Shown here: piece by piece, positions 53,523-64,000 of the stretch
Numbering within the stretch: the stretch's first letter is position 1
Layout: the number at the start of each line of letters is the position of its first letter
Source: Fibrobacter sp. UWB4
Lineage (GTDB): Bacteria > Fibrobacterota > Fibrobacteria > Fibrobacterales > Fibrobacteraceae
Reading direction: 5' to 3'
DNA length: 64,000 nucleotides
Assembly: GCF_002210345.1 (NCBI RefSeq)
Contig: NZ_MWQI01000001.1
Location: forward strand, 868,001 to 932,000
Translations under genes and position numbers: made by a program
Notes under the pieces: generated by a model
Databases searched by the model: none
What the model saw: the letters and a program-made list of their open reading frames with translations, nothing else
What the model was told of the DNA's origin: nothing

Positions 53523-56500
53523 TTACTTCTTCACATGCCTGTGGTACTCCTGCAAGCTGCATACTTCGAATCTTCCGAAGTCGTGCTTGTCCATGAGGCC
53601 TTCCACGGTAGAGGTGAGGGCGGCGATGGTCGTCGTGATAGGAATGCCCGAGACAACGGCCTTGGAGCGCATCTGGATTTCGTCGACCATGGCTTCTGCG
53701 CCGGTTTCGGTGGTGTTCACGATCCACTGCACTTCCTTATCGTGGATAAGGTCGAGCAGGTTCGGACGGCCACGGGAGATGCGGAACACGGCGCGAGTCT
53801 TGATGCCTTCGTTGTAGAGCATGGTGGAGGTGCCGCGGGTGGCGTACAGTTCGTATCCGAGGTTCACGAGCTGGCGAATAAGCGGTACTGCCTTCTGCTT
53901 GTCTTCGTCCTTGAGCGAGACGAAGATGTTGCCCTGGCTCGGGACCTTGTTGCCGGAAGCCAGCTGGCTCTTGAGGTAGGCGAGGCCGCGGTCGCGATCG
54001 AGGCTCATGACTTCACCGGTAGACTTCATTTCCGGAGAAAGCGTGATATCGACGCCCGGGAACTTGACGAACGGGAACACGGCTTCCTTGACGCTCACGT
54101 AAGGCACGCGGACTTCTTCGGTAAAGCCAATCTGTTCGAGAGATTCACCGGTCATGCAGCGTGTGGCATAGCTTGCAAGCGGCACGCCGATGGACTTGGA
54201 CACAAACGGCACCGTGCGGGATGCACGCGGGTTCACTTCGATCATGTAGAGTTCGCCATCCTTGACGGCGAGCTGCATGTTCATGAGACCAACGACGTGG
54301 AGTTCCTTAGCAAATTCCTTGGCGAATTCACGGACCTTGTCCTGAATTTCTTTGGAGAGGGTCATCGGCGGGATGACGCTGGCGGAGTCACCAGAGTGGA
54401 TGCCTGCGGGTTCCACGTGTTCCATGATGGCACCGATAACGGTGTGCTTGCCGTCGCTGATGCAATCAACATCGAGTTCGGTGGCGTCTTCGAGGAAGCG
54501 GTCGATGAGGATCGGCTTGCCTTCGCCAATGGCGGCAGCTTCTTCCACGAACTTGCGGAGGTACTTTTCCTTGTAGACAATCACCATGCCGCGGCCACCG
54601 AGAACGAAGCTCGGGCGCACGAGAACCGGGTAACCGATCTTATCGACAATGGCGAGGGCTTCTTCGACGTTGTGTGCAATGCCGCTTTCGGCCTGCTTGA
54701 TGCCAATCTTGGTGACGAGTTGCTTGAAGAAGTCGCGGTCTTCGGCGAGGTCGATGTCTTCGGGGCTTGTTCCGATGACATTTGCACCAGCCTTCTTGAG
54801 ACGCATGGCGAGGTTCAGCGGAGTCTGACCACCGAACTGAACAATCACGCCCGCGCACTTTTCGCGTTCGTAAATGCCCATCACGTCTTCGAGCGTCAGC
54901 GGTTCAAAGTAGAGCTTGTCCGAAGTATCGTAGTCGGTAGAAACCGTTTCGGGGTTAGAGTTCACCATGATGACTTCGAAGCCGTGCTTGCGGAGCGTGA
55001 ATGCAGCGTGGCAGCAGCAGTAGTCAAATTCAATGCCCTGGCCGATTCTGTTCGGACCGCCGCCGAGCACCATAATGCGTTTTTTGCTCTGGTGACCCGG
55101 AATTTCGCGGACCGGTTCGGTATTGTCGGCGTAGCAGCTATAGTAGTAAGGAGTGATAGCTTCGAATTCGCCGGCGCATGTATCGACGGAGTAGTAGCTC
55201 GGGATGAGGCCGATCTGCTTACGTACTGCCATGACTTCTTCCGGAGTCTTGTGGAAGAGGTAACCGATCTGGATATCGCTGAAGCCGAATTCCTTGGCCT
55301 GGCGGAAGAGAGCCTTATCCTTGGCGAGGTTTTCGAGAGAACCGGCTGCTGTGATTTCGTCTTCGAAGCAGGCTAGTTCTTCGAGGTGACGGAGGAAGTA
55401 GCGGTCGATTCTGGTCACATCGTAAAGTTTTTCGATGTCCCAGCCGCGACGGAATGCTTCGTAGACCACGAAGATGCGTTCTGCACTCGGGCGGGCGACT
55501 TCCTTGGCGAGCGTTTCGTCGTCGTATTCCTTGAACTTTTCGCACTTGGCGCAAGCACCGAATCCGCCGAATCCCGTTTCGAGAGAGCGGAGAGCCTTCT
55601 GCATGGCCTGCTTGAAGTTGGTACCGATGGCCATCGCTTCGCCTACAGACTTCATCTGGGTGCCCAGCGTGGAATCGGCCTTCGGGAACTTTTCGAAGGT
55701 GAAGCGCGGAACCTTCACGACGACGTAGTCGAGAGCCGGTTCGAAGCAGCTCGGAGTCGTTTGCGTAATGTCATTGCGGAGTTCGTCGAGTGTGTAGCCC
55801 ACGGCGAGGAGAGCTGCAATCTTTGCGATGGGGAAGCCCGTTGCCTTGGAGGCAAGAGCGGAAGAACGGGACACACGCGGGTTCATTTCGATGATGATGC
55901 GGCGGCCGGTCTTCGGTTCGATAGCCCACTGCACGTTAGAACCACCGGTTTCTACGCCGATGGCTTCCATGACCTTCAAGGAGTCATCACGCATAGCCTG
56001 GTAAGCGCGGTCATCAAGGCTCTGGATCGGAGCGACCGTGATGGAGTCACCCGTGTGAACGCCCATCGGGTCGAGGTTTTCAATGGAGCACACGATAACG
56101 GCATTGCCCTTCTTATCGCGCATGACTTCCATTTCGAATTCTTTCCAGCCAAGCAGCGATTCTTCGATAAGCACTTCGTTGTTGAGCGAGGCGTCCAAGC
56201 CGCGGTTCACGATGGTTTCGAATTCTTCTTCGTTGTGGGCGATACCGCCACCAGTACCACCAAGCGTAAAGCCCGGACGGATGATCAAGGGCCAGCTTCC
56301 GATGGTGTGGGCGATAGCGGTTGCTTCGCTCATGGAGTGTGCGGAACCGGAACGGGGGAGGTCAAGCCCAATCTTGAGCATGGCTTCCTTGAACAAGTGA
56401 CGGTCTTCGGCGCGCTGGATGGATTCGGCTTTAGCACCAATGAGTTCCACCTGGTAGCGGTCGAGAATACCGCGTTCGTTGAGTTCCATGGCGAGGTTCA

Positions 56501-56786
56501 AAGCGGTCTGGCCACCGAGTGTGGGGAGCAATGCATCGGGGCGTTCGCGACGGATAATTTCGTGCAAAATATCGACGCTCAGCGGTTCGATGTAGGTGCG
56601 GTCAGCCATTTCCGGGTCGGTCATGATGGTTGCTGGGTTGGAGTTCACGAGCACCACTTCGTAACCTTCACGACGAAGCACCTTACAGGCCTGTACGCCG
56701 GAGTAGTCGAATTCGCAGCCCTGGCCAATCACAATCGGGCCAGAACCAATGAGCATAATCTTCTTGATGTCGGTACGCTTAGGCAT
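53523..56786 (-). CDS. carB: carbamoyl-phosphate synthase large subunit
   Basis: 1087 aa from ATG 56786 (MPKRTDIKK), with AAGGGAGGC just before it; an earlier in-frame ATG 8 codons upstream lies inside carA. Two ATP-grasp halves are visible (first [18 protein letters not shown], second [18 protein letters not shown]), with [13 protein letters not shown] and [13 protein letters not shown] repeats, and the C-terminal MGS-like allosteric domain ([15 protein letters not shown]). It makes carbamoyl phosphate for pyrimidines and arginine. It overlaps carA by 8 bases, so translation is coupled. Confidence 0.97.
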
Positions 56787-57909
56787 TCTTGCCTCCCTTG
56801 AAATCTTCAATCATCTTCTTAAATTCTTCAAACAAGTACATGGAATCGTTCGGACCCGGGGCAGATTCCGGATGGTACTGCACGCTGAATGCCGGGAACT
56901 TTTTGTGGCGGATGCCTTCGACCGTGTTGTCGTTCAGGTTGATGTGCGTGACTTCGACATCGGCGGGGAGAGATGTTTCGTCAATGGCGTAGTTGTGGTT
57001 CTGCGACGTGATTTCGACAGCGCCCGTCAAGAGGTTCTTGACCGGATGGTTGCAGCCGTGGTGGCCGAACTTGAGCTTGGAAACTTTAGCACCGAGAGCA
57101 AGGCCGAGGAGCTGGTTACCCAGGCAGATGCCCATGAGTGGAATCTTGCCGAGGAGCTGCTTGACCATGTTGTAAACCTGCGGGAGGCTGTTCGGGTCGG
57201 CAGGGCCGTTGGAGAGGAATACGCCATCCGGCTTCTGTTCCATGATCTTTTCGTAGCTCGTGCCAATCGGCATGACCGTGATGCGCATGTCCTGAGCGAC
57301 GAGGTTTCTCAAGATGTTCGTCTTGATACCGAAATCGAGAGCAACGATATGGTACTTGCCTTCGTTGTTGAATTCGTAGCCGTTCGGGTCGGAGACCTTG
57401 CTCGCGTAGTCCTGACCGTCGAGGCCTTCCCAAGCTTTCGCCTTTGCGATTGCTTCAGCTTCGGTCATTTCCGTGTCTTCGACGTGGAGGTAAGCCTTCT
57501 GGGCACCGTGGGTGCGGAGGTGGAGCGTGAGGGCGCGAGTATCGACGCCTGCAATGCCAGCCTTCTTCTGGGCGAGCATATAATCATGAAGCGATTCTTC
57601 GTTCAGTTCCTTGGAAACCCAGTCGAGGGAGTTCACGACAATGCCGTTCAAGAAAACCTGGCGAGATTCGGACTTTTCAAAGTTCGTAGCGTAAGCGCCA
57701 ACTTCGGCCGTGGTGAAAACCACGAACTGACCGGCGTAAGACGGGTCGGTCAAAATCTGCTTGTAGCCAGCCATACCAGTATTGAACACGGCTTCGCCTA
57801 CGGTGTCTTTCTTTTCGCCAAAGGCGTAACCGTGGAATACGGCTCCGTCAGCCAAGGCTATAAAAGCCTTGCGCTCGCGCTTTGCTTTCCATTGAAATTT
57901 TTCGTTCAT
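56779..57909 (-). CDS. carA: carbamoyl-phosphate synthase small subunit
   Basis: 376 aa. N-terminal CPSase domain ([40 protein letters not shown]) and C-terminal class I glutaminase with the nucleophile Cys in [15 protein letters not shown] and the catalytic His-x-Glu in [10 protein letters not shown]. Delivers ammonia from glutamine to CarB. The gene is preceded at 13 bases by the end of a leader ORF that spans a terminator; see the leader entries. Weak ribosome binding site (ACGAG). Confidence 0.97.
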
Positions 57910-57922
57910 GATTTACTCGTTG

Positions 57923-58204
57923 CTAGAATGTAAAAAGCGGGTGTTTCCACGCCGTCATCCTGAGTGAAGTGCGTAGCACGAAAACGAAGGATCCAGGGCT
58001 GAAATAACTGGATTCTTTGCTTCGCTCAGAATGACGATGCAGTGTACAATAAAAAAGGCAAAAGCTAAATGCCTTTGCCTTAAAAATAAAACTCTTGAAA
58101 AAATGAATAGTCTTGTCAAAAACTGAAACCCAACCGACCTTTTTGTGGGCCGAAACTGCTTCCTTGAAGGCGAGTTCGAAGTCGACAAGTTCCATTCTTT
58201 TCAT
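57923..58204 (-). CDS. proposed carAB leader peptide ORF spanning an attenuator
   Basis: 93 codons from ATG 58204, ending 13 bases before carA. The start lies at or just past the expected transcription start, so it may be leaderless; ATG 58195 (MELVDFELAFKEA) is an alternative with a short leader. The first half is normal peptide; the middle is Phe-rich because of U-rich codons (IHFFKSFIFKAKAFSFCLF), and the last third is encoded by the dispersed GTCATCCTGAG repeat. A terminator hairpin lies inside the frame. This layout is that of the pyrBI leader of enteric bacteria. Confidence 0.5.
   Translation of the reverse strand: MKRMELVDFELAFKEAVSAHKKVGWVSVFDKTIHFFKSFIFKAKAFSFCLFYCTLHRHSERSKESSYFSPGSFVFVLRTSLRMTAWKHPLFTF
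57953..58036. repeat. dispersed repeat, inverted pair, in the carAB leader
   Basis: From CGTCATCCTGAGTGAAG to GGATCCAG, a short loop (GGCTGAAATAA), then CTGGATTC to CTTCGCTCAGAATGACG: two inverted copies able to form a long hairpin. Located between the leader terminator and carA. Confidence 0.75.
58055..58081 (-). terminator. intrinsic terminator inside the carAB leader (proposed attenuator)
   Basis: On the minus strand AAGGCAAA pairs with TTTGCCTT (near-perfect) around an inner GC-AUUUAG-type loop, followed by six T. It lies about 125 bases after the promoter start site and 146 bases before carA. The RNA before it (58082-58126) is U-rich with tracts of 5 and 6 U. Confidence 0.75.
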
Positions 58205-58212
58205 CGGGGGTA

Positions 58213-58241
58213 ATTATAGTAAATTGACCGGTTCGCGACAA
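58213..58241 (-). promoter_or_regulatory. proposed carAB promoter with a C tract at the start site
   Basis: On the minus strand TTGTCG (58236-58241) and a perfect TATAAT (58213-58218), spacer exactly 17. The sequence after the -10 box is TACCCCCGATG, so transcription would start at or just after a run of five C, a setting known elsewhere for nucleotide-sensitive start-site choice. Confidence 0.7.
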
Positions 58242-58315: not shown

Positions 58316-59056
58316 TCAAAAGGGGGCAACGCCTAAATCGGAGGCTCCTGATTTTACTTTAGCAAGGATTTCGAGGCCGGTGAGTTTTTGCATCATGCGG
58401 ATGTTGTCGTCTTCCATTTCAAGATTATTGCTTTCGCCATAGCGGTTCACGATGATCCCGCGAATGTCGAGACCGCGGCTTTTGGCATATTCGACTGTGA
58501 GAACGCAGGCGTTGATGGAGCCTAGCGCAGCTGTTGTGACTATAAGCAACGGAAGATCGACCGTTTTCATGATGTCTTCAAGAAAGATCTTTTTGCCGTT
58601 CGGGTCGGAGTTGCCCAAGCTGTCTACATCGTCGCGGATGGGACAGATGATGCCGCCGGAACCTTCGACAAAGACGAATTTGTGTCGGGTGCATGCTTCG
58701 TTGAAATCAACGGCAACTTTCGAAAGTTCAACCGGGTTTCCTTCTTTGCGGGCGGCAAGGTGTGGCGATACCGCTTCCTTGTATACATAGCTGACCAGCT
58801 GTTCTTGCGTGTCGGGGAGTCCTGCAATGCGCTTGACGTAGTCGGCATCGCCTGCAATCCATTGACCGTCGCGGAGTTCTGCACCGCTGAGAGCTGCCTT
58901 GTAGTAGCCGGCGTCAATTCCCGAATCTCTCCATTTCTTGACAAGGAGTGCCGTAATGAAAGTCTTGCCGACATCCGTGCCGGTAGCCGTAACGAAGTAA
59001 CCTTTTGATTTAGATGAGAGACTAGAGACGAGAGACGAAAGATTTTTGTTACACAT
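58316..59056 (-). CDS. bioD: dethiobiotin synthetase
   Basis: 246 aa. P-loop GTDVGKTFITALL (~25-37), YYKAALSG, and the DAPA-binding/second nucleotide region FVEGSGGIICPI. It carboxylates diaminopelargonate to dethiobiotin. Residues 6-16 (LSSLVSSLSSK) are encoded by the purine-rich intergenic repeat also seen at 34143-34160; no later in-frame start exists before the P-loop, so the repeat must be translated. The ATG overlaps the bioF stop by 8 bases. Last gene of the biotin operon; no terminator is visible. Confidence 0.95.
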   Translation of the reverse strand: MCNKNLSSLVSSLSSKSKGYFVTATGTDVGKTFITALLVKKWRDSGIDAGYYKAALSGAELRDGQWIAGDADYVKRIAGLPDTQEQLVSYVYKEAVSPHLAARKEGNPVELSKVAVDFNEACTRHKFVFVEGSGGIICPIRDDVDSLGNSDPNGKKIFLEDIMKTVDLPLLIVTTAALGSINACVLTVEYAKSRGLDIRGIIVNRYGESNNLEMEDDNIRMMQKLTGLEILAKVKSGASDLGVAPF

Positions 59057-60248
59057 AGTTTGTTGATTTTATAACTTGGGCAATTGCTTTTGCTGCGCGT
59101 TCGAGTTCTTCGTGCGTGTGCGTGGCCATGAGGCTTGCGCGGAGTCTCGCTTGTCCTTTCGCTACTGTGGGGTAGCGGATTGCAGGAATCACGTAGCCGC
59201 GCTCGAGAAGTTTTGCGGACGCGTTGAGTGCAGTCGCTTCATCTCCAATGATAACCGGAATGATTGCAGATGGTGACTGCGGTACGTTTAAGCCTTCCCG
59301 TTGTAAAGCCTCGCAGAAAAATTTCACGTTTTCTTGCAGTTGCTGAACGCGTTCCGGGTGTGATTCCAGGAATCGCAAGTTCCTGAGTGCGCCTGCGGCC
59401 ATTGCCGGCGACATCGCTGTCGTGAAAATGAAACTGCGAGACTTGTTTTTCAGAAATTCAATGAGTTGTTTTTTTCCAGCGACGAAACCGCCTTCGCATG
59501 CAATGGCTTTGCTCAAGGTGCCTACGGTGACGTCGGCATGTTCGCATCCGTAATGTTCGGCAAGCCCGCGTCCTGTTCGCCCAATGACGCCTGTGGCGTG
59601 TGCTTCGTCAATCATCAAGAGGCAGTTGTATGTGTGCGCAATTCGCAAAAGCTCTGGCAAGTTTGCAAGGTCACCGTCCATGCTGAAAACTGCATCTGTG
59701 ACGATTAGCATTTTTTGATTCGTTGCATTTTCCTGGATGGCGCGCTCCAGGTCTGTCATGTCGTTGTGCTTGTAAACTACACATGTAGCGCGTGAAAGTC
59801 GGATGCCGTCGATAATGCTTGCGTGGTTCAGGGCATCGCTAAAGATAATGTCGCTTTTGCCGCACAAAGCAGAAATCGTCCCGACGTTTGCCATGTAGCC
59901 AGTGTTGAATGTAATTGCCGCCTCTTCGCCCTTGAACTTTGCGAGTTCGATTTCGAGTTCGTCGTGAGGTGTTTTATTGCCAGTCGTAAGGCGTGCGCCT
60001 CCGCTTCCCGTTCCCCAGTCAAGAACGGCTTGTGCCATCGCTTGTTTTAATTCTGGGATGTTGGCCAAGTCGAGATAAGAGTTGGAGGCGAGAAGAAGTT
60101 GTTCGCTTGATGCGTGAGCATCGGCAACGTGAATCTTTACATGCGATGATTCAGGGGTTTCCATCGTACGCAAGGTACGGTAGGTGTTGTTGAGCTTTGC
60201 CGTCTCTAAAACATCTTTTGTAAAATCGTCAAGAAGTTTGCTATTCAT
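59049..60248 (-). CDS. bioF: 8-amino-7-oxononanoate synthase
   Basis: 399 aa PLP enzyme; joins pimeloyl thioester and alanine. Motifs: NSYLDLAN, GSGGARLTTGNKTPHDELE, DEAHATGVIGRTGRG and the Schiff-base lysine in VTVGTLSKAIACEGGF (~K240). Starts 1 base after the bioW stop. Similar to KBL enzymes, but context settles the call. Confidence 0.93.
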   Translation of the reverse strand: MNSKLLDDFTKDVLETAKLNNTYRTLRTMETPESSHVKIHVADAHASSEQLLLASNSYLDLANIPELKQAMAQAVLDWGTGSGGARLTTGNKTPHDELEIELAKFKGEEAAITFNTGYMANVGTISALCGKSDIIFSDALNHASIIDGIRLSRATCVVYKHNDMTDLERAIQENATNQKMLIVTDAVFSMDGDLANLPELLRIAHTYNCLLMIDEAHATGVIGRTGRGLAEHYGCEHADVTVGTLSKAIACEGGFVAGKKQLIEFLKNKSRSFIFTTAMSPAMAAGALRNLRFLESHPERVQQLQENVKFFCEALQREGLNVPQSPSAIIPVIIGDEATALNASAKLLERGYVIPAIRYPTVAKGQARLRASLMATHTHEELERAAKAIAQVIKSTNYV

Positions 60249-60249
60249 T

Positions 60250-61017
60250 CTAATCCACTAATACTTTTTTCTTTTGCAAGTATTCAATGCAGTCTTTCGC
60301 TTTTGCCTTTCGTGAATCGAACAAGAAAATGCGGCCTCCGTTTTCGTCGCCCATTTTCTTCATCTTCATAATGCGTATATAGCCGAGTTCCTTACTTGCG
60401 ACATAGCCTGTTACATAATTCGGGTCGTCGCTCACGCAAAATTCTGCGACCATTCCCGGGGCATTTGCAACTTTGGTCGCAAGCACGATGGCTTCGTTAA
60501 AGTGATTTTTGCAGCCATCGACTTCGCTTGAATGGAGTGCGTCCATGTATGTCGCGCGTACACCGCGTTCGTGGTCGGGCTCGAGGCGCTCGCCGGTCGC
60601 TATGTCATAGAGCATCGCTCCTCGCATAGGGAATGTCTCGCGCAAGAGTGCCTGCAATTTTATACGCAGTTCCTTGAGATTTTTCGCGGAATCGGTCGCG
60701 TTTTCGGAACTCATCAGCGGTGCGATTAAATCAAAAGCCTTGTCCAGTCCCTGTTCTGCGCTTTCGACATCTATGCGTGTCACGGGGAGCGCCTTTAAAA
60801 TCTGGATATCGTTTTCGTTTACTTTTTCAATCTTGACGTTTATAAAGTCCGGGTCGCCTTTGGAATGTGTCATTGCACGGCGAACCATTGCTGAACATAC
60901 CGCTTCTACGGAGTCTCTCGTTACAATTCGTTCGGCGCCGGATATGTGTTGTTCGTGTGCGCCCTCACCTTCGCCGATATGCTGTGATGCGCGCATCTTT
61001 AAACTGTAGTAGTCCAT
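60250..61017 (-). CDS. bioW: 6-carboxyhexanoate-CoA ligase (pimeloyl-CoA synthetase)
   Basis: 255 aa. The start DYYSLKMRASQHIGEGEGAHEQHISGAERIV is diagnostic for BioW, as are FPMRGAMLYDIATGERLEPDHERGVRATYMD and the C-terminal GGRIFLF. It activates free pimelate with ATP and CoA, so this organism uses the BioW route, as Bacillus does, and not BioC/BioH. It lies 24 bases after bioA and 1 base before bioF. Confidence 0.93.
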   Translation of the reverse strand: MDYYSLKMRASQHIGEGEGAHEQHISGAERIVTRDSVEAVCSAMVRRAMTHSKGDPDFINVKIEKVNENDIQILKALPVTRIDVESAEQGLDKAFDLIAPLMSSENATDSAKNLKELRIKLQALLRETFPMRGAMLYDIATGERLEPDHERGVRATYMDALHSSEVDGCKNHFNEAIVLATKVANAPGMVAEFCVSDDPNYVTGYVASKELGYIRIMKMKKMGDENGGRIFLFDSRKAKAKDCIEYLQKKKVLVD

Positions 61018-61041
61018 TTTTATTCCCAGCGAATTATCTCT

Positions 61042-62385
61042 TTACTCGTGAAATTCGTCATCGCCTTCAATAACTGGCGCTGGCTTACATTCTCCAATAA
61101 GTTTAATCGCTTCGCAAATGCGGTCCAGTTCTGCATCTGTCGTAATGAGCGGAGGCATGGTGTAGACGTAATTGCAGAACGGCCTGAGCCATACGCCCGT
61201 TTCGCGGATGACCTTCTGGATGTCTTCGGCAGTGGGCTTCGCCTTGAGTTCCAGGACGCCGATGGCGCCCAGTACGCGGACATCGGCTGCATTCTCGAGT
61301 GAACGGAGGGGTTCAAGGTTAGCACGGAGGCGCTTTTCGATGCGGGCGACGCTTGTTGCGTAATCGCGGCTCTCGAACAGGGAAAGCGATGCGATGCCTG
61401 CTGCGCATGCAAGCGGGTTTGCCATGTAGGTTGGCCCGTGCATGAATGCCGAAATTTTGCTATTCGTGATGGTTTCGGCCACTTTTTCGGAAGCGACGCA
61501 GGCTGCCATCGTTATTGAACCACCCGTCAAAGCCTTGCCGATGCACATGATGTCAGGCTTGATATAGTCGTTCTCGCCACAGCTTTTTGCGTCATTGGCG
61601 GTATGCATCATTGCGAATTTTGGACCCGTACGGAAAAATCCCGAAGCGATTTCGTCTAAAATAAGCAAGATGCCATAGCGGTTGCAGAGTTCGCGAAGCT
61701 TTTTAAGGTAATGGGCATTGTAAAGCCACATGCCGTTTCCGCCCTGAAAAACCGGTTCGCAAATTACAGCGGCTATTTCGTTTTTGTGCTGTTCGACGAT
61801 TTGTTCCATCGATGTAAAATCGCTATCGTCCCACACGCCGTCGGCCCTGCAATTGGGGCGTTCTGCAAAATAATGGTGCGGCATGATACCACGGAAAAGC
61901 GTGTGCATTCCATCGGGATCGCTAAGTGCCATAGCGCCAGCGGTATCGCCGTGGTAGCCGCCTTTGAGTGCGACCAACTTGCAGCGCTCCGGCCTCCCGA
62001 GCGCATACTGGTATTGCACGGCCATCTTGGCAGCGCATTCTACAGCGATGCTCCCGGAATCGGCAAAAAAGATTTTGTTCAGGCCGTTAGGCAAAAAGTT
62101 CACCAGCTTTTCACCCAGCTCAATTGCTGGTTCGTGCGTGAAGCCGCCGAACATCACGTGGCACATTTTTTCGCTTTGTTTCTGAATGGCTTCGACAATT
62201 TCGGGTGCGTTATGCCCATGAGCCATGCACCACCAGCTCGAAACGGCATCAATAAGTTTCAGCCCGTCGGCGGTTTCAATTGTTGTTCCGTGGGCAGCCT
62301 TCGCCAAAAAACGAGAAGGCCCCTTATGTAGCGCTGCATAAGGGTGCCATAAATATTCGTTATCAAATTTTAAAAGCTTTTCCAT
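61042..62385 (-). CDS. bioA: adenosylmethionine-8-amino-7-oxononanoate aminotransferase
   Basis: 447 aa from ATG 62385 (MEKLLKFDNEYLWHPYA). Class III aminotransferase: ISAVSSWWCMAHGHN-like AVSSWWCMAHGHNAPEI, YHGDTAGAM, DEIASGFFRTG and the PLP lysine in CIGKALTGGS. WHPYAA and SWWC are typical of BioA. First gene of bioA-W-F-D; bioB is not in the window. Only 70 bases separate it from pyrG, with a 14-bp perfect palindrome (62414-62427) in between. Confidence 0.95.
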   Translation of the reverse strand: MEKLLKFDNEYLWHPYAALHKGPSRFLAKAAHGTTIETADGLKLIDAVSSWWCMAHGHNAPEIVEAIQKQSEKMCHVMFGGFTHEPAIELGEKLVNFLPNGLNKIFFADSGSIAVECAAKMAVQYQYALGRPERCKLVALKGGYHGDTAGAMALSDPDGMHTLFRGIMPHHYFAERPNCRADGVWDDSDFTSMEQIVEQHKNEIAAVICEPVFQGGNGMWLYNAHYLKKLRELCNRYGILLILDEIASGFFRTGPKFAMMHTANDAKSCGENDYIKPDIMCIGKALTGGSITMAACVASEKVAETITNSKISAFMHGPTYMANPLACAAGIASLSLFESRDYATSVARIEKRLRANLEPLRSLENAADVRVLGAIGVLELKAKPTAEDIQKVIRETGVWLRPFCNYVYTMPPLITTDAELDRICEAIKLIGECKPAPVIEGDDEFHE

Positions 62386-62413
62386 TTGGTGCGCAATATA
62401 GAAAATCAAATCT

Positions 62414-62455: not shown

Positions 62456-64000
62456 TTATTTTTTCTCGTCGGCGGCCTTCAAAAGTCCAAGGAAGAGCGG
62501 GGCCGGGTGGATCAGCGAGGACTTCAGTTCTGGGTGGAACTGGCAGGCCATAAAGTAGGGGTGGTCCGTGAGTTCCATAATCTGCATAATGTCTTCGTTG
62601 GCAGCTTTTCCGGAGAAAATGAGCTTTTGCTGGTTTGCGCCCGTCGGGTCACCCTGTTCAATCTGAGCGACGTACTGCGGATTCACTTCGTAGCGGTGGC
62701 GGAAGCGTTCGCGGATGGCGGTAGAACCGTAAACCTGGGCGGCAAGGCTTCCTTCCTTGATGACAACGTCGTGACCGCCAAGGCGCATCGTCGCACCCAA
62801 ATCCTTGATGTGTTCCTGGCCAGGGAGGAACGCAATGACCGGAACTTCGACGTGGTTCGTTTCGCTTTCCATTTCGATTGTGCCTGCGCCCTGCATGCCG
62901 CAGACGTGGCGCGCAAATTCGACGACGGAGAGCTGCATGCCGTAACAAATGCCGAGGAACGGGATCTTGTTTTCGCGCACATAGCGGATGACCTGGATCT
63001 TGCCTTCGATACCGCGGCTACCGAAACCGCCTGGAACGATGACTGCGTCGATTCCCTTGAGTGCGGTTTCGACAGAAACGGTACCATTTTCAATTTTTTC
63101 CGTATCGACCCAGCGGATGTTGGCATGCAAATCCAAATGGGCGGAGGCATGTGTAATCGCTTCGACAACAGATGCGTAAGAATCTTCGAGGGCGAGGTAC
63201 TTGCCGCAAATGGCAACGGTAAGCGTCTTGCGCGGATTCACGGAATTGCGCTTGAGGGCGTCCACGAGCTTGCTCCATTGATCAAGTTTCGGCGGGGCGT
63301 AAATGCCTAGCGTCTTGGAAAGAATCTCGGGAATGCCTTCGGCATCGTAAACGAGCGGGCATTCGTAAACGTGCTTCACGTCAATGCCAGAGATGATGTG
63401 GTCAGCTGGCAAGTTGCAGAACAAGCCGATTTTTGCCTTGAGGTGCGGCTTGATATATTCTTCGCAACGACCGATAACGATTTCCGGGTAAATGCCGAGC
63501 TTGTTCAAATCACGCACGGACATCTGCGTGGGCTTGGATTTCTGTTCGTTCACGCCAGACGGAATCGGGACGTAGGTGAGGTGTACGAAAATCGCATTGT
63601 GGTCGCCAACTTCGTGACTTAGCTGGCGAGCTGCTTCGATGTAAAACTGGTTTTCGAGATCGCCTACGGTACCGCCGATTTCAATCAACAGCACATCCGC
63701 TTTTTCCTGGTTTGCAATTCTGTAGAACTGTTCCTTGATAAGGTCTGTCACGTGCGGGATGAACTGCACCGTATGACCGAGATAGTCGCCGCGACGTTCC
63801 TTTTCGAGAATCATCTTGAAAATGCGACCCATCGTGAGGCTCCAATCTTTCTTGGCGGTCACGTTCAAAAAGCGTTCGTAGTGGCCGAAGTCCATATCGC
63901 ATTCGCCACCGTCATCCAAAACAAAAACTTCACCATGTTCGGTCGGGTTCATTGTGCCCGGGTCCGTGTTCAGGTAACCATCGCATTTGACTGGAACCAC
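62456..64000 (-). CDS. pyrG: CTP synthase (5' end outside the window)
   Basis: 514 residues are visible; about the first 30 of the usual ~545 are missing because the gene runs past the right edge. Synthetase domain: DPGTMNPTEHGEVFVLDDGGECDMDFGHYERFL, EIGGTVGDLEN. Glutaminase domain: VPGGFGSRGIEGK, nucleophile Cys in GICYGMQLSVVEFAR (~365 of the visible part), and HPE in FHPELKSSLIHP. It makes CTP from UTP. Located near carAB, but separated by the biotin operon. Confidence 0.97.
   Translation of the reverse strand: MVPVKCDGYLNTDPGTMNPTEHGEVFVLDDGGECDMDFGHYERFLNVTAKKDWSLTMGRIFKMILEKERRGDYLGHTVQFIPHVTDLIKEQFYRIANQEKADVLLIEIGGTVGDLENQFYIEAARQLSHEVGDHNAIFVHLTYVPIPSGVNEQKSKPTQMSVRDLNKLGIYPEIVIGRCEEYIKPHLKAKIGLFCNLPADHIISGIDVKHVYECPLVYDAEGIPEILSKTLGIYAPPKLDQWSKLVDALKRNSVNPRKTLTVAICGKYLALEDSYASVVEAITHASAHLDLHANIRWVDTEKIENGTVSVETALKGIDAVIVPGGFGSRGIEGKIQVIRYVRENKIPFLGICYGMQLSVVEFARHVCGMQGAGTIEMESETNHVEVPVIAFLPGQEHIKDLGATMRLGGHDVVIKEGSLAAQVYGSTAIRERFRHRYEVNPQYVAQIEQGDPTGANQQKLIFSGKAANEDIMQIMELTDHPYFMACQFHPELKSSLIHPAPLFLGLLKAADEKK

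Follow-up and report, generated by a model that had tools for sequence, protein, structure and literature searches.

The window analysed here is a 64,000-nt stretch of the genome of Fibrobacter sp. UWB4 (NZ_MWQI01000001.1), and coordinates are positions within it. It bears carA and carB on the minus strand, preceded by a short leader ORF with a promoter of its own, a U-rich segment and an intrinsic terminator (Table 1). The biotin cluster (bioA, bioW, bioF, bioD) lies on this strand as well, immediately upstream of the leader (58316-62409). A preliminary description of this DNA had reported the promoter (TTGTCG-17-TATAAT), a U-rich stretch with runs of 5 and 6 U before a clear terminator, and an ORF passing through this terminator to end 13 bases before carA (ATG at 57909); all of them were retrieved at their minus-strand places, and the ORF crosses the terminator in frame. 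Two of its points have to be amended. The ORF had been described as beginning at the start site, and its ATG indeed lies next to the predicted start in the C tract, but it is better called essentially leaderless. Concerning its span, the claimed ORF is there, but its codons 57-84 run through a dispersed repeat inserted at 57953-58036, which has 27 genome matches. The repeat is missing from the same spot in most relatives, where the leader ORF ends directly at carA, while several relatives harbor other repeats between terminator and carA, by which the leader frame is usually not closed.

Table 1. Features of the carAB leader region and the genes that follow it, in window coordinates
Feature	Position	Strand	Remarks
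-35 hexamer	58236-58241	-	TTGTCG, from sequence; TTGTC retained by most type I relatives
-10 hexamer	58213-58218	-	TATAAT; spacer of 17 nt to the -35 hexamer
Start-site region	58205-58210	-	CCCCCG; predicted +1 inside (inferred, unmapped)
Leader ORF	57923-58204	-	93 codons; near-leaderless ATG at 58204
U-rich segment	58082-58123	-	55% U; 5- and 6-U runs; putative UTP-sensitive pause region
Intrinsic terminator stem-loop	58055-58081	-	11 pairs, 5-nt loop, -15.5 kcal/mol; U run after
Dispersed palindromic repeat	57953-58036		Inserted between terminator and carA
carA	56779-57909	-	Carbamoyl-phosphate synthase small subunit; TIGR01368, 439 bits
carB ORF	53523-56810	-	Overlaps the carA end; NF003671, 1609 bits

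The U content of the segment before the stem compares with 23% for the remaining leader, and the pattern of the terminator hairpin occurs only once in the genome. Nevertheless, counts of such motifs in the window alone are no better than those in shuffled sequences (one promoter versus 1.0 expected, two terminators versus 1.3 expected), and for this reason the case rests on the relatives.

Conservation of the leader in Fibrobacter

A protein search located carA in the genus, and the DNA preceding it was read in 58 Fibrobacter genomes and in one genome of a sister genus. The promoter, the ATG, the short ORF, the U-rich stretch and the terminator are present in all 58 Fibrobacter genomes with a readable carA upstream region, as well as in the genome of the sister genus. 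The preliminary description had named the absence of the leader ORF, the U tracts and the hairpin from relatives as a ground for its refutation; all three are kept in every relative tested. Additional copies away from carA, before pyrG and carB, were found by a search with the type II peptide described below, giving 71 leaders together with the carA copies. The sequences are related, so that the counts are not independent.

The distance from the ATG to the terminator stem takes 11 values across the 71 leaders, from 62 to 188 nt. The carA leaders contribute nine of them (62, 95, 125, 128, 131, 134, 140, 143 and 188 nt) and the other copies add 116 and 146 nt. Every one equals 2 modulo 3, therefore the leader ORF passes through the terminator in frame in every case, and despite the kinship of the sequences at least 10 length changes must have occurred, each of them keeping the frame. 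Through the terminator, frame 0 is open in 58/58 genomes, frame +1 in 1/58 and frame +2 in 7/58. The leader stop overlaps the carA ATG (ATGA, -4) in 31/58, is found 3 nt before it in 9, and falls between -8 and +26 nt of it in 55/58. Where repeats or other insertions have widened the spacer to at least 60 nt, the frame is still open to carA in 17 of 24 cases, versus 5.4 expected from shuffles. In many relatives the gap between stem and carA is only 38-48 nt, which leaves no room for another promoter. Among type I genomes, identity is at background level above the promoter (0.28-0.32) and rises to 0.57 over the promoter itself and to 0.78 within the leader, so that the leader and its own promoter form the conserved unit; the upstream neighbour genes vary between relatives.

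A -10-like box (TANNNT) is established 7-9 nt before the leader ATG in 58/58 leaders (about 7 in shuffles), and the ORF starts with CC(G/T)ATG in 58/59, the exception being L054 with TCGATG. With the box at this distance, transcription is expected to start no more than about three bases from the AUG; the predicted 5′ UTR is approximately 0-5 nt (the start is unmapped), which would render the leader ORF essentially leaderless and the transcript too short at its 5′ end to hold a Shine-Dalgarno sequence. Even in the DNA upstream of the leader ATG, Shine-Dalgarno-like letters are seen in 2/58 only. Near-leaderless promoters occur elsewhere in the window too, thus such geometry by itself lacks specificity. 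In genus g4, which belongs to the same family, carA has no such leader; the gene itself appears near-leaderless there (L069-L073, L083-L086), its own ATG being preceded at 5-7 nt by a TANNTT-like box and a mostly C-rich tract.

The terminator stem and its U-tail are present in all 59 leaders examined (mean -14.7 kcal/mol). The 42 nt preceding the stem consist of 51% U and 20% A in the Fibrobacter leaders, and this bias extends to synonymous sites: among codons ending in a pyrimidine, the share ending in U is 79% before the stem, versus 35% in the N-terminal part of the ORF and 24% in carA, and Ile codons ATT and ATC stand at 98:6 versus 206:278. The U-rich codons also encode a hydrophobic segment, which could be held against a nucleotide-level role. 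Because synonymous sites favor U, however, the two can be separated, and the codon counts argue that selection acts on the nucleotide U and not merely on hydrophobic residues or A+T.

Leader types and distribution

Type I leaders, including that of the window, encode MKRMELVDFELAFKEAVSAHKKVGW.., whereas type II leaders encode MKISESIEAHMSAAVAAISQRNQ.. in their place. The same leader was found before pyrG in 7 genomes and before a separate carB in 6, each copy retaining the U-rich part and the 5′ hairpin as well as the frame. Within the order, the type II leader was not found outside Fibrobacter and one sister genus (2 of 12 genera positive). In the window's genome, inspection by eye revealed no leader before pyrR-pyrB, pyrD, argF or its own pyrG. 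This pyrG (62456-64000, L103) is clearly unlike the leader-controlled pyrG of close relatives, suggesting a replacement. A PyrR homologue is located directly upstream of pyrB in the same genome (L135, 924-2424), without a carA-type leader. Downstream of pyrG in a relative, a Fibro-purF RNA (RF02974, 87.5 bits) was detected (L089, 4325-4398).

Long-range pairing between codons 3-9 and the U-rich part of type I leaders was better within than between genomes (permutation 0.003, nine related sequences). RNAalifold favors a different type I fold over this pairing, without clear compensatory support.

Probable attenuation mechanism and its alternatives

The anatomy of the leader, its frame and its U bias are conserved, and it is used on carA, carB and pyrG. 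All features that define a pyrBI attenuator at the sequence level are present, namely a promoter, a terminator inside the ORF, an ORF crossing it, a U-rich region and the lack of an antiterminator; consensus folds revealed none, and the terminator arms are not shared. The pyrBI-type reading of the preliminary description gains support from the conserved features, the synonymous U bias, the missing antiterminator and the recurrence of this leader before carB and pyrG. We consider it probable that a translation-coupled attenuator of the pyrBI design precedes carAB and responds to pyrimidine nucleotides. Transcription would begin in the C-rich tract, and a ribosome would load on the AUG at or beside the 5′ end and translate the short ORF through the terminator up to carA. 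With pyrimidine triphosphates plentiful, polymerase would outrun the ribosome, the hairpin at 58081-58055 would form and transcription would end. With UTP low, polymerase would be slowed in the U-rich stretch, allowing the ribosome to close up and cover the hairpin sequence; transcription would then continue into carA, and the ribosome, finishing beside the carA start, may help its translation. For the leader of the window, UTP is the likelier signal, its sensing being inferred. The start site, UTP-dependent pausing, ribosome catch-up and re-initiation are likewise all inferences, and there are no expression data.

The strongest rival places the main sensor at the start site. High CTP would favor a start at C, whereupon the folded 5′ end would mask the AUG, prevent leader translation and leave the terminator active; low CTP would shift the start to G or A, freeing the AUG so that the translated leader prevents termination. 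Support for this scheme comes from the type II leaders. Their 5′ hairpin CCGAU/AUCGG, which includes the start codon, is present in 45/45 carA, carB and pyrG leaders (one with a U-G pair), a second hairpin (CGUUGC/GCAACG) in 44-45 of 45, and third codon positions are 99% invariant inside the two hairpins versus 77% outside; L025 keeps AUCGG despite a different reading frame. No double compensatory changes were seen in the type II hairpins. Folding predicts that AUG accessibility rises from about 0.01-0.34 for a start at C to about 0.76-0.98 for a start at A. That the hairpin would hide the AUG only for C starts suggests an added CTP-sensitive switch in type II, as far as folding predictions can tell. 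The presence of this leader on pyrG and the near-leaderless carA of genus g4 after mostly C-rich tracts also agree with a role for CTP. However, the window's type I leaders have no conserved 5′ hairpin (-2.5 kcal/mol in L002 and weaker still in most type I relatives), the start sites are unmapped, and the geometry, as noted, is unspecific. The preliminary suggestion that the C tract may add CTP-sensitive control in this way draws support from the predicted C-dependent hairpin of type II, but not directly from the window's own leader. As the main sensor, CTP-sensitive start-site switching remains possible but somewhat doubtful.

Two further points weigh against the pyrBI-type reading. One is pyrG: sensing of UTP alone suits carAB well but pyrG poorly, because CTP synthase consumes UTP; a CTP-dependent start would resolve this misfit for type II. 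The other is the N-terminal peptide SIEAH..AV..IS.RNQ, which is kept across synonymous change in type II leaders, in L059 and in L068 of the sister genus, and is not required by a pure pyrBI mechanism. Because start-site switching and UTP attenuation can operate jointly, our confidences in the two readings overlap. Their combination, in which CTP-dependent start choice would gate leader translation, UTP-dependent pausing would gate the arrival of the ribosome, and the whole would have moved among carA, carB and pyrG, is put forward only tentatively and is on balance rather unlikely.

The same peptide, observed in L022 and other type II leaders of two genera and unexplained by the pure pyrBI mechanism, raises the possibility of nascent-peptide arrest, by which it would stall the ribosome on a metabolite (e.g., arginine or a pyrimidine) and so decide terminator formation. 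Its retention despite synonymous turnover speaks for such a role, but the type I peptide of the window differs, most of the segment is missing from L025 and L053 although they keep the start, the U-rich part and the terminator, and the type II leader shows three times the amino-acid change of carA. No run of regulatory codons was found in the leaders either, Arg codons being absent from 24/58 U-rich segments, and we consider peptide arrest improbable. The search of the leader peptides against Pfam returned nothing above the cut-off. Classical amino-acid attenuation was rejected separately, the his/trp type because the ORF crosses the terminator, Arg codons are missing from those 24 segments and there is no antiterminator, and arginine-codon attenuation on the same Arg codon count.

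Even less probable is an action of PyrR, of a different RNA-binding regulator or of a riboswitch on the leader RNA, with the ORF being incidental. The PyrR homologue adjoining pyrB and the two conserved type II hairpins would suit it, but the ORF frame is strictly kept, and searches of the window and of the relatives' leaders matched no Rfam family, the PyrR attenuator loop (RF00515) included. A resemblance to the PyrR loop in type II (AAUCCAUCGAGGCA) was rejected, since its letters vary among relatives, are absent from type I and have no Rfam match. Finally, a promoter lacking regulation, followed by a partial terminator and an ORF open by chance, which the shuffle-like motif counts of the window alone would allow, is hardly credible given the conserved frame, U bias and geometry and the reuse on three pyrimidine genes, and a chance origin of the leader features is already excluded by the comparative sequence data.

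Comparison with known systems

No prior paper on such an attenuator was found in the literature searched (most subscription journals were not covered), and there is no Rfam family for it. Attenuation of the pyrBI type needs ribosomes close behind polymerase, therefore a conserved case would be sequence evidence for transcription-translation coupling. If our reading is true, this coupling is functional in Fibrobacterota, for which no examination was found in the literature searched, and a pyrBI-like element is used on carA, carB and pyrG instead of pyrB; the leader also represents a natural reporter for coupling. Type II leaders would, if the start-site switch is real, combine in about 150 bases start-site switching and coupled attenuation, which are known separately, and under the two-signal reading a single leader would integrate both pyrimidine triphosphates.

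Mycobacteria possess leaderless short-ORF attenuators based on cysteine codons; the near-leaderless short ORF is common to both systems, while the cysteine codons and the unrelated genes set them apart. The carA (SRC-12-1) motif of beta-proteobacteria is likewise an RNA element directly upstream of carA, described as an extended imperfect hairpin and possible riboswitch, with no leader ORF through a terminator described (PMC8632094). The carAB operon of Escherichia coli shares the genes and the pyrimidine response inferred here. It is controlled from two promoters, by a number of DNA-binding proteins and by reiterative transcription that depends on UTP, and its P2 promoter is stated to be free of attenuation (PMC6245113). 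Start-site switching of E. coli pyrC and pyrD (original papers cited in PMC5730371) resembles the Fibrobacter case in its C-rich start and in a hairpin that, in type II, is predicted to close completely only on transcripts begun at C. In pyrC and pyrD the structure masks the ribosome site of the enzyme gene itself, whereas in Fibrobacter the hidden AUG would belong to a terminator-controlling leader ORF, and the hairpin is not conserved in type I.

The closest counterpart is pyrBI (pyrL) of E. coli and Salmonella, in whose established scheme the ribosome, aided by pausing, covers a terminator inside the leader ORF (PMC5021804; PMC4824070). Both have a leader ORF crossing an intrinsic terminator, U runs before the stem, no antiterminator and a pyrimidine gene downstream, and the 3-nt gap between pyrL and pyrB is identical in 9 Fibrobacter leaders. 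The enteric leader has a Shine-Dalgarno sequence where the Fibrobacter start is near-leaderless, and its U content before the stem, measured likewise for E. coli pyrL, is lower (33% versus 51%). A U-run start site for reiterative transcription is absent from the C-rich Fibrobacter start region, but UTP-dependent reiterative transcription is an accessory trait of the enteric pyrBI promoter and not of the attenuator. While the pyrBI-type design is known, its occurrence in the phylum Fibrobacterota, its target genes carA, carB and pyrG, the near-leaderless start and a possible second signal would be new.
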